From the NCBI RefSeq assembly GCF_012030425.1, contig NZ_JAAUVN010000003.1:1-64000 (forward strand): a stretch of DNA of 64,000 nt, written 5' to 3'. Under the pieces are notes generated by a model. It had not been told where the DNA came from and did not search any database. It saw nothing but the letters and a program-made list of their open reading frames with translations. The translations under genes were made by a program, and so were the position numbers. Of this stretch, positions 1,006 to 5,419 are shown one piece after another (position 1 is the stretch's first letter; each line of letters opens with the position of its first letter). Source of the DNA: Sphingobacterium sp. B16(2022) (GTDB taxonomy: Bacteria; Bacteroidota; Bacteroidia; Sphingobacteriales; Sphingobacteriaceae).

Positions 1006-1392
1006 CTACTTTTTAAAAACCCAAAATCGCTGAAGTGTATAATTAAATCCCAAGGAAACAATAATCTCCACTATTACTTTGGAGACTAATGGGTGTAAGT
1101 GCCATATATCATCCAATAAATAAATACCACCCGACTTTAATAAAATACTTCCTGCAACTACAACTACAAATTTACCGAGCTGCTGGCCCAACGGGGCAGC
1201 AGTATTATTGAAAGACCAATAACGGTTAATAACGAAATTAACAATGGCTCCTAAAGAGCCACTGATTACATTTGAGAATGCTGGAGAAAAACTCAGCACT
1301 TTATAACAAAAAGTATAAATACCAAAATCGGAAAGACCGCCTACAAAAGCAGATAACTGCGCCTTAAAGAACTCTTTGATTTTTGGGTTCAT
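1006..1392 (-). CDS. GtrA-family four-helix membrane protein
   Basis: This 128-residue protein has four hydrophobic segments and the duplicated GtrA signature: FVINRYWSF near residue 55 and FNYTLQRFWVFKK at the C-terminus. GtrA proteins are thought to help move polyprenyl- or lipid-linked sugars across the inner membrane. It is the last gene of the sphingolipid operon, 3 nt after the CDP-alcohol phosphotransferase, and a terminator follows. In this setting it may move or present a glycosylated lipid or lipid precursor; that is inference. The family call is firm and the substrate is unknown. Confidence 0.85.
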   Translation of the reverse strand: MNPKIKEFFKAQLSAFVGGLSDFGIYTFCYKVLSFSPAFSNVISGSLGAIVNFVINRYWSFNNTAAPLGQQLGKFVVVVAGSILLKSGGIYLLDDIWHLHPLVSKVIVEIIVSLGFNYTLQRFWVFKK

Positions 1393-1395
1393 ATC

Positions 1396-2085
1396 TTATA
1401 AATTTTCTGACTCTTTAGTTTTCTTCTCTTCAGCATCTCTGATATCGCCTAAATCTAATAACTTTTTAGTATCAATAGAATTTATAACAAAAAGAATAGC
1501 ACAGATACCCATCACTAAGTAATGAATTGCACCTACAAAAAATACTTCTATAAGTAAAACAAGACATATAATGACCCTGATTTCTGTAGGCCCAACAATT
1601 CCTGCATCTATTGTATACTTATCTGTTACCTTATAACGCAACAAAGAAAGAATCATGGCCCAGCCATACAAAGCTACCAATACAAAACCTGTTAATTCAA
1701 AATTACCTTTTGCATAAAATACATACCCCAGACCAATCAGTACCGTACTGATCCAATCCATTACAATATCCAGTGAAAATCCATACCATTTACGCGATTT
1801 ATTTCTATAAAAAGCAATACGGCCATCAAGAGAGTCTCCGAACCATTGAATAAAAAAGCCTAGAATACCTAGCAGTAGATAATTAATGTCACAATATTGG
1901 GCCAAGATAAAACTTGCCATAATCATGACGGATCCAAATAGACCGATCGCTGTCAAACCATCGGACGAAATCCAATTTGGAATACGTGGAACTAAATATG
2001 AAATAAATTTCTGTTCCGGATTACTCAATATATTTGTTCTTTTTCTATCTTGAAAAAGTTTTTTATTTATTTTTTGACCACTCAT
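1396..2085 (-). CDS. CDP-alcohol phosphatidyltransferase family protein, candidate sphingolipid head-group transferase
   Basis: This integral membrane enzyme would transfer a phosphoalcohol from a CDP-linked donor. The family motif D..DG..A(R)...G...D...D is present as DSLDGRIAFYR followed by GFSLDIVMD; with the ATG at 2085 these are D84, D87, G88, A91, F92, G102, D106 and D110. The usual Arg after Ala is replaced by Phe92; the next Arg is two residues later. About six hydrophobic segments follow. An upstream TTG at 2106 would overlap the epimerase gene; the ATG at 2085 after AAAAAGAGAG is preferred. Its position after ceramide-type genes suggests it makes phosphosphingolipids such as ceramide phosphoinositol or phosphoethanolamine; the acceptor is inferred. 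Confidence 0.85.
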   Translation of the reverse strand: MSGQKINKKLFQDRKRTNILSNPEQKFISYLVPRIPNWISSDGLTAIGLFGSVMIMASFILAQYCDINYLLLGILGFFIQWFGDSLDGRIAFYRNKSRKWYGFSLDIVMDWISTVLIGLGYVFYAKGNFELTGFVLVALYGWAMILSLLRYKVTDKYTIDAGIVGPTEIRVIICLVLLIEVFFVGAIHYLVMGICAILFVINSIDTKKLLDLGDIRDAEEKKTKESENL

Positions 2086-2096
2086 CTCTCTTTTTA

Positions 2097-3089: not shown

Positions 3090-4210
3090 AGCGCTTGCTC
3101 ATACAAACGATAGCGTTTGTATAATTCTCCATTGATTTGCTCGATGGCGTGATTCATCATATAATTAGTATCAAGCATCCACGAGCATTCTGCTCCTTTG
3201 ACGGTAAACCCATCGCCAGAGTTTTTAATTATCCTACCATAAAGGCAGGCTTCTATTCCTAATTTACGATACTCATCCAATACGCCAAGCATCAAAACTC
3301 GAATTAGGTTCACCTTTTTCAATCCAAAGAGCAATTTAAAAATCCCAGTCGGCAATAGTCTACCACGTTTGATTTTAATTAGAATCTGATTGATATCCGG
3401 AATTCCTAAAGCGAATCCAATGACCTTCCCATCCTTTTCAGCCAATAAAGCATATCGAGGATCAACGATCATTTTCATTTCCTTTGCAGCGTAGTTAAAT
3501 TCATCTTCCGTAAAAGGCACAAAACCTAAGTTTTTATCCCAAGCTTTATTATAGATCTCCCTAATTCGCTCGGTTTCATTTTTAAAATCCTTCAAGTTCA
3601 TTTGACGAATCTTAATTCCCGAACGGTTTAATCGTTCTTCCAGTTTCTCCAACAACAGCACAGATCGTTTACTTGCTTTATTTTCCATCACTAGGTAGGC
3701 ACGCAAATCAACTTTTTTTTGAAAACCTGCTTGAGTAACTAATTCTGGATAATAAGGAAAATTATAAGGCATCATCGCTACAGGTGGGCTATCAAATCCT
3801 TCGATCAATAAACCACAAGTATCATTAGTCGTTAAATTAATTGGACCAACAATATTAGTTCCACCTTTAGCTTTCACCCAATCCTTTGCTGCTTGAAACA
3901 AAGCATTTGCAACCTCTTGATCGTTAATACAATCAAAAAATCCCCATTGCCCTTCCTGCACTTGATTGAATGCATTATGATTAACATTCCAAATTGCGGC
4001 GATACGACCGACCAGTTTTTGATCTTTGTATGCTAAAAATAATTGTGTGGAGGAATGTTTGTAGAAAGGATGCTTACCAGGAGTAAGCAAATCATACTGA
4101 GCAAGATATAGCTCTGGTACATAATAAGGATTTTCCGCATATAAACTATGCGGAAAATCTATATATAACCGTTTCTGTTTCTTTGTTTCAACGGGAATAA
4201 CCTGTATCAT
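3086..4210 (-). CDS. GNAT-like acyltransferase, candidate bacterial ceramide synthase (bCerS)
   Basis: This protein has about 374 residues and no signal peptide. It contains motifs of a large GNAT-related family: NPYYVPEL, HPFYKHSS, VGRIAAIWN, GQWGFFDC and VGPINLTTND. A C-terminal acetyltransferase-like half (PRYALLAEKDGKVIGFALG) follows. Related proteins sit beside serine palmitoyltransferase in many sphingolipid-making bacteria, and one in Caulobacter acts as the N-acyltransferase bCerS. The GTG at 4219 abuts the upstream stop; I prefer the ATG at 4210. Acylation of sphinganine or 3-ketosphinganine is the likely reaction, but substrate order cannot be read from sequence. A generic N-acetyltransferase is the alternative. 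Confidence 0.8.
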   Translation of the reverse strand: MIQVIPVETKKQKRLYIDFPHSLYAENPYYVPELYLAQYDLLTPGKHPFYKHSSTQLFLAYKDQKLVGRIAAIWNVNHNAFNQVQEGQWGFFDCINDQEVANALFQAAKDWVKAKGGTNIVGPINLTTNDTCGLLIEGFDSPPVAMMPYNFPYYPELVTQAGFQKKVDLRAYLVMENKASKRSVLLLEKLEERLNRSGIKIRQMNLKDFKNETERIREIYNKAWDKNLGFVPFTEDEFNYAAKEMKMIVDPRYALLAEKDGKVIGFALGIPDINQILIKIKRGRLLPTGIFKLLFGLKKVNLIRVLMLGVLDEYRKLGIEACLYGRIIKNSGDGFTVKGAECSWMLDTNYMMNHAIEQINGELYKRYRLYEQAL

Positions 4211-4219
4211 AATAGACAC

Positions 4220-5419
4220 TTAGATTAAAGATTCAACATCTGCTAATTTGAAGACTTTTACCATCTTCTCAATAGCTTCATCAATTTGATCAAAGCTATG
4301 TGTTGCCATTAAAGAGAAACGAATCAATGATTCTTCTGCAGGAACAGCAGGTGAAACTACTGGATTAACAAAAACCCCATCGTCTTGAAGCATTTTGGTT
4401 ACCCAGAATGTTTTCTCGTTATTTCTAATAAAGATCGGTAATATAGGGCTTTCTGTAGCACCTAAATCAAATCCACTTTCTAAAAGTAATTTTTTAGCAT
4501 AATTTGTATTTGACCATAATTTCTCAATATGCTGAGGTTCGGTTTGTATAATCTCCAAAGCTTTCAATGTCGAAGCGACAGAAGCTGGTGTCATACTTGC
4601 ACTGAACATAACTGACCGCGCAGAGTGTTTCAAGTAATCGATAACATCAGCATCGCCTGATACAAAGCCACCTAGAGAGGCAAATGATTTACTGAAAGTA
4701 CCCATAATTAAGTCGGCACTGTCGGTTAGTCCAAAGTGAGAGGCAGTACCTGCACCTTTTTCTCCGATTACACCTAAACTATGTGCATCATCAACCATAA
4801 CAGTTGCATCAAATTCATCTGCAATCTTTATCAATTCAGGCAAATTAACAATATCTCCCTCCATACTGAAGATACCATCCGTTGCAATCAATTTACCACT
4901 TTCTTCTGGTAATCTAGCAATTTTTGCACGCAGATCATTCATATCATTGTGTGCATACTTGATTACTTTAGAAAAAGATAATCTACTTCCATCAATGATA
5001 GAAGCATGATCACGTTCATCCAATAAGATATAATCATTGCGACCAGTAAGACATGATAATGGGCCCAAGTTTGATTGAAAACCTGTACTGAATAAAATAG
5101 TAGACTCTTTCCCCACATAAGCCGACAATTTCTCTTCAAGCTCCACATGAATATCTAAAGTACCATTTAAAAAACGAGATCCAGCACAACCGGTTCCATA
5201 TTTTGCTAATGCGTCTTGAGAAGCTTTGATAATACGTTCATCCGTCGTTAACCCTAAATAAGAATTAGAACCAAACATCAAAACACGCTTGCCATCAATT
5301 TTCACTTCGGTATCCTGTCTCGACTGAATCGGTCTAAAATAAGCGTATAAGCCCTTAGCTTTTAATTCATTAACGATTTTAAATTGCGATATTCTCTCGC
5401 CTAATTTTCCTTTACTCAT
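4220..5419 (-). CDS. spt: Serine palmitoyltransferase (alpha-oxoamine synthase family)
   Basis: This soluble PLP enzyme would condense L-serine with palmitoyl-CoA (or acyl-ACP) to 3-ketosphinganine, the first committed sphingolipid step. Visible hallmarks are the glycine-rich [14 protein letters not shown] (74-87), the substrate-stacking His138 in DERDHAS, the PLP-binding DDAHSLG (210-216) and the Schiff-base Lys244 in [12 protein letters not shown]. At 399 residues it matches the known soluble Sphingobacterium enzymes. BioF and Kbl are the main alternatives, but no biotin or threonine genes are nearby and the downstream genes are ceramide-type. It is the first gene of a five-gene operon and has a -7 match upstream at 5581-5589. 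Confidence 0.93.

Follow-up and report, generated by a model that had tools for sequence, protein, structure and literature searches.

The reactions catalysed by serine palmitoyltransferase (SPT), the ceramide synthase bCerS and the ceramide reductase CerR are established in relatives of the proteins considered here, and ceramides carrying phosphoethanolamine are known from Porphyromonas and Sphingobacterium; Naka is said to have described ceramide phosphoethanolamine, among others, from S. spiritivorum in 2003. Such ceramides are also major lipids of B. thetaiotaomicron, in which, according to Sartorio et al. (PMC8791184), there is no match to the insect ceramide phosphoethanolamine synthase. 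In the open-licence literature searched, no bacterial gene for the final step was found. For inositol phosphoceramide, B. thetaiotaomicron has an operon (BT1522-1526) that includes a CDP-alcohol enzyme and a GtrA-like protein, the head group reaching ceramide via phosphatidylinositol and an Aur1 homologue (PMC8791184), and the CDP-alcohol enzyme of an 'alternative' inositol-lipid cluster has been proposed to use a CDP-polar donor (PMC9246714).

The window analysed here (the whole stretch from position 1 to 64,000 of contig NZ_JAAUVN010000003.1, assembly GCF_012030425.1, Sphingobacterium sp. B16(2022)) contains five tightly packed genes on the minus strand (1006-5419), transcribed in the order SPT, GNAT-like protein, SDR, CDP-alcohol phosphotransferase, GtrA-like protein:

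4220..5419, minus strand: spt, serine palmitoyltransferase of Bacteroidota type, operon gene 1 (399 aa; NF047600, phmmer to PDB)
3086..4219, minus strand: bCerS-family N-acyltransferase (GNAT), candidate ceramide synthase (377 aa, GTG start; YghO similarity, clade)
2097..3089, minus strand: CerR-like extended SDR, candidate 3-ketoceramide reductase (330 aa; PF01370, similarity to SDRs of spt clusters)
1396..2106, minus strand: CDP-alcohol phosphotransferase of a distinct subfamily, candidate head-group transferase (236 aa from TTG; PF01066, fold, motif, context)
1006..1392, minus strand: GtrA-like membrane protein, candidate partner in the head-group step (128 aa; PF04138)
943..968, minus strand: terminator-like hairpin with T-rich tail, 3' of the GtrA gene (consensus match only)

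Like the sphingolipid genes of Caulobacter and E. coli B, this operon brings together SPT, a bCerS-family GNAT protein (bCerS/YghO) and an extended-SDR reductase; unlike them, it is without AcpR/AasR and its SPT is of the Bacteroidota type. With BT1522-1526 it shares the pairing of a CDP-alcohol enzyme with a GtrA-like protein, but in B. thetaiotaomicron the SPT gene (BT_0870) lies outside the operon (PMC8791184) and the CDP-alcohol enzyme belongs to another subfamily.

The operon and its backbone enzymes

The initial annotation had claimed a single five-gene operon, and this stands: its coordinates were exact, the genes are closely spaced and their order is conserved far beyond chance. Homologues of the CDP-alcohol gene point to an ATG at residue 8 (about 2085) rather than the listed TTG, and with this start the spacing ranges from a 4-base overlap to an 11-base gap. 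Upstream of spt, a search for a Bacteroidota-type promoter pattern found none. The terminator claimed after the GtrA gene fared less well: a hairpin with a T-rich tail is present (968-943, about 37 bases beyond the gene), but such sites number 12 in positions 1-7400 against 4.7 expected, so that a single consensus match is little proof.

The five-gene operon is a trait of the genus. All five genes are present in each of the 18 Sphingobacterium loci among the 80 that we name, which are the best 80 of 573 relatives of the CDP-alcohol protein (the other 62 lie outside the genus) and are therefore an uneven sample. The last four genes occur in all 30 genus loci whose flanks end before SPT, the window's own included, and the CDP-alcohol gene is present in 59 of 60 Sphingobacterium genomes, again counting that of the window.

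Identification of the first gene product as SPT was borne out by the NF047600 equivalog model (727.1 bits; cut-off 640) and by phmmer matches to PDB entries 8guh and 3a2b (E about 1e-235), which we take to come from S. multivorum; the protein is 89% identical to S. multivorum SPT (locus L140). The NF047600 score and PDB matches rule out Kbl, BioF or capnine synthase. In S. detergens, an attempt to disrupt spt was unsuccessful (PMC12724326). Plasmid matches to the same AOS family in Thioclava and Methylocystis lie, judging by annotation, in polyketide-type clusters.

The second product matches PF00583 (25.1 bits; cut-off 20.7) and none of the NCBIfam models, and is 37% identical to E. coli YghO over 380 aa (E 2e-80). 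YghO has been given as the counterpart of Caulobacter CC_1154 (PMC9386255) and stands for it as the bCerS-clade reference in our midpoint-rooted tree, for which the plasmid input was 11 of the 42 records with a relative, leaving aside remoter records such as those of Ensifer and Shinella. A 27-row clade with support 100/99 holds both YghO and the window protein, and all nine of its plasmid members have an spt-like gene no more than about 11 kb away; the GNAT proteins of L117 and L120, likewise encoded beside SPT, fall in the other clade. The initial annotation would have given up its reading had the protein lain outside the bCerS clade; its grouping with the published CC_1154 counterpart supports a bCerS-family member and candidate ceramide synthase.

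For the third product, the proposal of an SDR of ceramide-reductase type was upheld by PF01370 (120.1 bits; cut-off 20.9), by the GxxGxxG and YxxxK motifs of extended SDRs (GASGFVG at 9, YGRSK at 143) and by 27-29% identity to SDRs in the spt clusters of E. coli, Pseudomonas and Klebsiella (E 1e-29 to 4e-32). As the SDR superfamily is large, CerR orthology leans on gene order too, and together these lines support a CerR-like protein, a candidate 3-ketoceramide reductase. It is hardly credible that the first three genes are no ceramide set at all, with an AOS enzyme of another kind beside an unrelated GNAT and SDR: three weaker AOS-family matches do occur elsewhere in the genome, but the NF047600 score, the identity to the S. 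multivorum enzyme and the position of the GNAT within the YghO clade all speak against this. The suggested match to the Caulobacter Spt/bCerS/CerR set holds for the three kinds of protein but not gene for gene: the SPT belongs to the Bacteroidota type, and neither an acyl carrier protein gene nor one for an acyl-ACP synthetase would fit into the operon.

According to one paper (PMC11334938), the Bacteroidota that produce sphingolipids do not have their spt, bCerS and cerR genes near one another. Our survey qualifies this statement, since spt, GNAT and SDR genes are close together in Sphingobacterium and in several related families; L113-L116 and L118 are exceptions. Kinase-family genes are presumably present in L113, L116 and L118.

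The CDP-alcohol phosphotransferase and its relatives

The fourth product matches PF01066 (26.8 bits; cut-off 22). In alignment A2 (the window protein and 56 of the 75 loci in which the gene starts cleanly at an ATG, from the best 80 of 573 relatives), the four Asp of DxxDGxxA...GxxxDxxxD are kept in 57/57 rows, and the canonical Arg of the signature 'AR' is replaced by Tyr (50/57) or Phe (7/57); more distant relatives, those of Sphingomonadaceae included, keep this Arg. The subfamily signature reads WxGDSLDGRxA[YF]xR...RxxYG...D[IV]xxDW...GPTExR. The tree of the family left out 12 of the 18 Sphingobacterium rows. Eukaryotic CHPT1/CEPT1, which use CDP-choline/ethanolamine, and EPT1 are class II enzymes of about 380-400 aa that, like the shorter window protein, have a TE motif after the catalytic helices. 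The window protein differs from them in its Tyr/Phe for the motif Arg and in having Phe110 and Ile114 in place of the class II Glu/His dyad (Glu129/His133; G2ExxD3HxxD4) that CHPT1 needs (PMC10182977).

An AF2 model (pLDDT 91.4) has a predicted fold matching CHPT1, CEPT1, PIPS, AF2299 and DIPPS, with human CHPT1 ranked first by Foldseek and Z of 9-11 to PGPS and PSS, but such scores do not distinguish enzymes that take a CDP-head-group from those that take a CDP-lipid. In a search of PDB sequences with the family profile, at E up to 1, only CHPT1/CEPT1 were found and no PIPS, PGPS or PSS chain. Nor did the window protein match NF052561 (the BT1523-type PIP synthase model, cut-off 350) at E 0.01, and it does not significantly resemble the CDP-alcohol proteins encoded in spt clusters of Roseomonas and Diaphorobacter (E 0.7, or no match below 1).

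The fifth product matches PF04138 (GtrA/DPMS_TM; 74.3 bits, cut-off 26.1), and its gene is the immediate downstream neighbour of the one for the CDP-alcohol protein in 42 of the 62 loci that lie outside the genus among the best 80 of 573 relatives. It is a candidate helper of the CDP-alcohol protein. Across those 62 loci, linkage of the CDP gene to SPT is limited to three: Olivibacter L166 (SPT, GNAT, then FA_hydroxylase-CDP-GtrA), Ferruginibacter L189 (GNAT, SDR, then FA_hydroxylase-CDP-GtrA, with SPT immediately beyond the locus edge) and, in another phylum, Syntrophaceae L198 (SDR-SPT-CDP). Most of these relatives being located elsewhere, the family is not defined by SPT linkage. SPT scores over its cut-off in 36/48 non-Sphingobacterium genomes with close CDP relatives (best 80 of 573), compared with 32/345 genomes of the class. 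The 48 derive from the 62 loci after leaving out L158 and 12 others, mostly fragmentary MAG contigs (L163, L168, L169, L171, L173, L174, L181, L193, L201, L203, L206, L208), L161 and L209 being one genome. In a sample of one order (CDP relative at E 1e-10, SPT at E 1e-185), SPT was found in 12/21 CDP genomes and 43/172 others (Fisher p 0.0034, kinship uncorrected), or, counting close CDP relatives only, in 7/12 versus 48/181 (p 0.025, kinship uncorrected); 43 of the 55 SPT genomes had no CDP relative and 9 of the 21 CDP genomes no SPT at these thresholds. The order of genome G296 is presumably Bacteroidales.

In Flavobacterium and some Pedobacter the neighbours of the CDP-GtrA pair are genes for a PhyH dioxygenase and an SDR of the classical kind, and only 4/10 genomes with this arrangement (among the best 80 of 573 relatives) have SPT over the cut-off, so the acceptor there is probably a lipid other than ceramide. 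Flavobacterium hydatis (L183) carries the pair but no SPT scoring over the threshold. The plasmid relatives found (13 records) are all from Sphingomonadaceae, and around the five of them that were inspected no SPT is annotated. We take the neighbours at L005 to be ATP-grasp, HAD and flippase-like genes, and one at L213 to be mannose-1-phosphate guanylyltransferase-like.

Inositol genes in SPT operons and in the genome

Twenty SPT loci outside Sphingobacterium were compared, 15 of them scoring above the cut-off of the SPT model and five below it. A GNAT relative lies beside SPT in 13, and in seven of these, from related families (L106-L110, L112, L119), MIPS and PIP synthase genes come next on the same strand, with GtrA in six of the seven; in L111, SPT and GNAT are followed by the other inositol genes. 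The CDP-alcohol gene of L110, the one scored, reached 394 bits against NF052561. Such SPT-GNAT-(SDR)-MIPS-(PgpA)-(GtrA)-PIPS operons resemble that of Sphingobacterium in placing backbone genes before head-group genes, but have inositol genes where it has the CDP gene. In B. thetaiotaomicron, inositol phosphoceramide was lost or reduced when genes of this kind were knocked out (PMC8791184, PMC9246714).

Elsewhere in the window's genome (G000:C11) lies an inositol cluster composed like the 'alternative' one (PMC9246714) and encoding a further CDP-alcohol enzyme; its existence rules out the operon's CDP-alcohol protein as the sole inositol enzyme. The other two PF01066 genes in the genome are the one in this cluster and a PssA-like gene (104.9 bits; cut-off 107), leaving ethanolamine without another candidate enzyme. 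No dedicated phosphoethanolamine cytidylyltransferase was recognised in the genome, two TagD/HldE-like genes scoring below both curated cut-offs. Two cytidylyltransferase-family genes are, we presume, one CoaD-like and one of NadD length.

Possible activities of the CDP-alcohol phosphotransferase

How might the five products act together? SPT would form 3-ketosphinganine by condensing serine and an acyl thioester; once the bCerS-family protein had N-acylated this, the CerR-like SDR would reduce the 3-keto group to give dihydroceramide. With a CDP-linked polar compound as its presumed donor, the CDP-alcohol phosphotransferase would then place the phospho-head-group on the ceramide 1-OH. GtrA proteins have a flippase role in O-antigen systems, and the one here may present or flip a lipid, so aiding the head-group step at the membrane. 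If the head group is ethanolamine, the product would be ceramide phosphoethanolamine.

A role as head-group transferase on ceramide, whatever the head group, seems fairly probable. The initial proposal to this effect draws its support from gene context (conservation throughout the genus, inositol genes in the same place elsewhere, SPT co-occurrence, the linkages in L166, L189 and L198) and from the fold and the CHPT1/CEPT1 matches of the profile. Counting against it are the changed motif Arg and missing Glu/His dyad, the scarcity of SPT linkage outside the genus, the many SPT genomes of the order sample that have no CDP relative, and the lack of a recognised cytidylyltransferase for phosphoethanolamine. 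The CDP-GtrA pair is found in genomes without SPT as well, so it is not exclusive to sphingolipids. Ceramide phosphoethanolamine synthase is the activity that we favour, tentatively, and with the same reserve we suggest that bacterial enzymes of this kind form a new CDP-AP subfamily acting from CDP-ethanolamine on dihydroceramide with a GtrA partner; the likeness to the insect synthase would lie in the proposed reaction. A universal enzyme is unlikely, as B. thetaiotaomicron makes ethanolamine phosphoceramide without an insect-synthase match (PMC8791184). With a candidate inside a five-gene operon, the final step is open to direct testing.

Transfer of some other head group to ceramide (inositol, mannose or glycerol) is rather unlikely: the inositol genes occupying the same place in other SPT operons, the report of ceramide phosphoinositol in S. 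spiritivorum (cited in PMC9246714) and the lack of a clear CDP-ethanolamine supply would all suit it, but the genome's separate inositol cluster and the missing NF052561 match would not. Unlikely to a similar degree is a glycerophospholipid as the product (phosphatidylethanolamine from a Kennedy-type step, for instance), with no more than co-regulation tying the protein to the sphingolipid genes; this would accord with its closest PDB sequences being those of diacylglycerol users and with the CDP-GtrA pairs in genomes lacking SPT, yet SPT co-occurrence, three separate linkages and the retained PssA-like gene count against it. Improbable, finally, is a class I enzyme joining a CDP-activated lipid to a polar acceptor, which the missing dyad and the Z scores to AF2299, DIPPS and PIPS (about 16-18, equal to or above the 13.5-17.1 to CHPT1/CEPT1) would favour, but against which stand an operon without lipid kinase or lipid cytidylyltransferase, the PDB profile matches and the Foldseek ranking.

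The operon in Sphingobacterium

The initial annotation had described a run of five genes closed by a terminator, and this is confirmed:

1006-5419, minus strand: five-gene operon, successive genes with almost zero spacing
968-943, minus strand: hairpin with T-rich tail, after the operon

The genes encode, in order, serine palmitoyltransferase (SPT), a GNAT-like protein, an SDR, a CDP-alcohol phosphotransferase (here the CDP protein) and a GtrA-like protein. The window covers the opening 64 kb of contig C28 in a genome of 6.0 Mb. Its SPT shares 89% identity with the S. multivorum enzyme. 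Named genomes, when scanned for relatives of the CDP protein, gave 573, of which the best 80 were retained; among these 80, the top-matching named loci were those of Sphingobacterium, which together with the SPT identity points to that genus. The complete five-gene set was present in all 18 named Sphingobacterium loci. The CDP gene was detected in 59 of 60 Sphingobacterium genomes, and the operon is a trait of the genus.

An rRNA operon lies 0.7-1.3 kb past the GtrA gene in all four complete Sphingobacterium genomes retrieved for that purpose (L226-L229); none was found in the retrieved stretches of L074, L141 and L148. The adjoining rRNA operon may be why the window contig (at window positions 1-1000) and many named Sphingobacterium contigs begin or end at the operon.

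The backbone genes

The first three genes had been proposed as a ceramide-type set, and as family membership this assignment is solid. SPT scored 727 bits against the NF047600 cut-off of 640. In profile searches the GNAT-like protein matched no NCBIfam model and gave a weak hit in Pfam; it is 37% identical to E. coli YghO across 380 residues (E 2e-80), and yghO (ECD_02850) is listed alongside CC_1154, the Caulobacter acyltransferase gene required for dihydroceramide, in a figure legend (PMC9386255, Figure 9). A maximum likelihood tree (33 rows, midpoint root) supports it as a bCerS-family member: with YghO, the CC_1154 counterpart, it falls in a 27-row clade (support 100/99) that also includes GNAT proteins from Klebsiella, Pseudomonas, Roseomonas, Sphingomonas, Diaphorobacter, Aureispira, Rubrobacter and Streptomyces. 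All nine plasmid members of this clade have an spt-like gene nearby: the two genes adjoin directly in Aureispira, Rubrobacter and Streptomyces, of which Rubrobacter and Streptomyces share the SPT-GNAT-SDR order of the window operon, and they are no more than about 11 kb apart in the remainder. The window SDR is an extended SDR; its identity is 27-29% to reductases from the spt clusters of E. coli, Klebsiella and Pseudomonas, and 22% to the Roseomonas one. In the Pseudomonas plasmid pPNP1 (L058:2652-4717), the bCerS-family gene is split by an IS5 transposase gene, the neighbouring spt-cluster genes being annotated as whole.

A second GNAT clade comprises Bacteroides finegoldii and Chloroflexota proteins, the retrieved stretches around which contained no SPT, together with two SPT-adjacent (L117, L120) and two CDP-adjacent (L196, L200) proteins. 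The B. finegoldii member (L224:5004-6140), which adjoins topoisomerase IV, is a candidate ceramide synthase of gut Bacteroides. The SPT gene of B. finegoldii (L056:4487-9188) adjoins a diacylglycerol-kinase-family gene, with a GtrA gene three genes off; what we take by eye to be similar kinase genes flank SPT in L113, L116 and L118.

The CDP protein as a candidate head-group transferase

An AlphaFold2 model of the CDP protein (57-row alignment, pLDDT 91.4) has the CDP-alcohol phosphotransferase fold, with structural matches to CHPT1, CEPT1, PIP synthases, AF2299 and DIPPS. CHPT1 and CEPT1 were the sole matches in a profile search of PDB sequences (best E 5e-8), in an alignment running through the TE motif, whose Glu175 is invariant. 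The four motif Asp residues are unchanged in 57/57 rows of the family alignment, and the canonical motif Arg is replaced by Tyr or Phe. Xenopus CHPT1 is reported to require a Glu/His pair (PMC10182977), whereas the corresponding residues of the CDP protein are Phe110 and Ile114. Arg 101 and Arg 105 are invariant across the 57 rows and could, at a guess, have taken over phosphate binding.

The CDP protein is a likely head-group transferase. A CDP-polar donor and ceramide as acceptor would be favoured, since the operon provides ceramide and contains no lipid-activating gene. The favoured head group would be ethanolamine, because the other two PF01066 genes of the genome cover inositol and phosphatidylserine, and because ceramide phosphoethanolamine is known from Sphingobacterium. 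For S. detergens, a TLC fraction is described at the position given for ceramide phosphoethanolamine in Bacteroides (PMC12724326). Donor supply is the weakest link of the ethanolamine reading: the genome has four CTP_transf_like genes, two of them TagD/HldE-like and below both cut-offs. Of the other two, judged by eye, one looks CoaD-like and one is of NadD length.

Head-group genes and the CDP-GtrA pair in other genomes

Twenty SPT loci were retrieved outside Sphingobacterium (15 above the SPT cut-off, five below). A GNAT relative stands beside SPT in 13 (L106-L112, L117, L119, L120, L122, L123, L125), followed in seven of these (L106-L110, L112, L119) by genes for myo-inositol phosphate synthase and PIP synthase on the same strand; L111 has the other inositol genes. 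The one PIP synthase scored (L110) reached 394 bits against the 350 cut-off of NF052561, the BT1523 model. Within the retrieved stretches, the seven inositol-type operons also include GtrA (6/7), fatty acid hydroxylase (5/7), PAP2/Aur1-like (4/7) and PgpA (3/7) genes. None of these genes, nor a GNAT relative, was found beside SPT in the other seven loci (L113-L116, L118, L121, L124). As knockouts in B. thetaiotaomicron showed such inositol genes to make inositol phosphoceramide (reported in PMC8791184 and PMC9246714), related families often hold head-group genes after the backbone genes, and in Sphingobacterium this position is occupied by the CDP and GtrA genes. The inositol genes of the window genome are at a separate site, on contig C11, where a cluster (L005:5493-11116) resembles the published 'alternative' inositol-lipid cluster; its genes are those for MIPS, an NTP transferase, an ATP-grasp protein, a CDP-alcohol enzyme, a flippase-like protein and an HAD protein (the ATP-grasp, HAD and flippase-like names by eye).

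GtrA accompanies three types of head-group module, those of the B. thetaiotaomicron operon (BT1524), the SPT-MIPS-PIPS operons and the window operon. For the BT1524 mutant, one study reports lowered inositol phosphoceramide and raised PI (PMC8791184), and another describes no lipid phenotype (PMC9246714); transport or presentation would be our guess at the role of GtrA.

Among the best 80 of the 573 CDP relatives, the 62 loci outside Sphingobacterium include 42 (41 by clustering) in which GtrA comes directly after the CDP gene, the remaining neighbours differing between loci. SPT was above cut-off in 36 of the 48 CDP-bearing genomes outside the genus in this set, with a fragment or lower-scoring SPT in three more (L187, L198, L202); the class background is 32/345. 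At strict thresholds (1e-185 for SPT, 1e-10 for CDP), and with kinship uncorrected throughout, SPT occurred within one order in 12/21 CDP genomes vs 43/172 without CDP (odds ratio 4.0, p 0.0034), or in 7/12 vs 48/181 (p 0.025) when close CDP relatives alone were counted, and in the class sample minus Sphingobacterium in 2/5 vs 27/337 (p 0.06). Physical linkage to SPT was seen in 3/62 loci outside the genus among the best 80: in Olivibacter and Ferruginibacter, genes for an outer-membrane-type protein and a fatty acid hydroxylase intervene (the Ferruginibacter SPT, at 210666-211844, being just beyond the locus edge at 210367 and on the same contig by coordinates), and in a Syntrophaceae genome, from a different phylum, SDR, SPT and CDP genes are in direct succession.

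Of the 55 SPT genomes in the order sample, 43 had no CDP relative at 1e-10, and 9 of its 21 CDP genomes had no SPT at 1e-185. Together with the SDR-PhyH-CDP-GtrA genomes below, these absences mean that the CDP-GtrA pair probably serves more than one lipid and that head-group addition must involve more than one type of enzyme. An SDR-PhyH-CDP-GtrA set is conserved in Flavobacterium, Pedobacter and Desertivirga, frequently without SPT in the genome:

L061:7332-10415, L060, L162, L167, L175, L176, L184, L185, L191, L192, L197: SDR-PhyH-CDP-GtrA
L183: the same, without SDR in its stretch

Among the best 80 of 573, SPT was above cut-off in 4/10 genomes with this set vs 32/38 other CDP genomes. PhyH is 76-95% identical to that of L061, and the CDP relatives from Flavobacterium and Pedobacter loci with this set form one clade (99/89), with Desertivirga, which has the set too, outside it. 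It is presumably a set for lipid modification.

All 13 plasmid records with a CDP relative (matches H61-H73) are from Sphingomonadaceae; in two of the five loci retrieved (L126-L130), a VacJ-family lipoprotein gene immediately precedes it. An acyltransferase gene adjoins the CDP gene in seven loci (L170, L194, L196, L200, L204, L207, L210), the sole one scored being PF19576.
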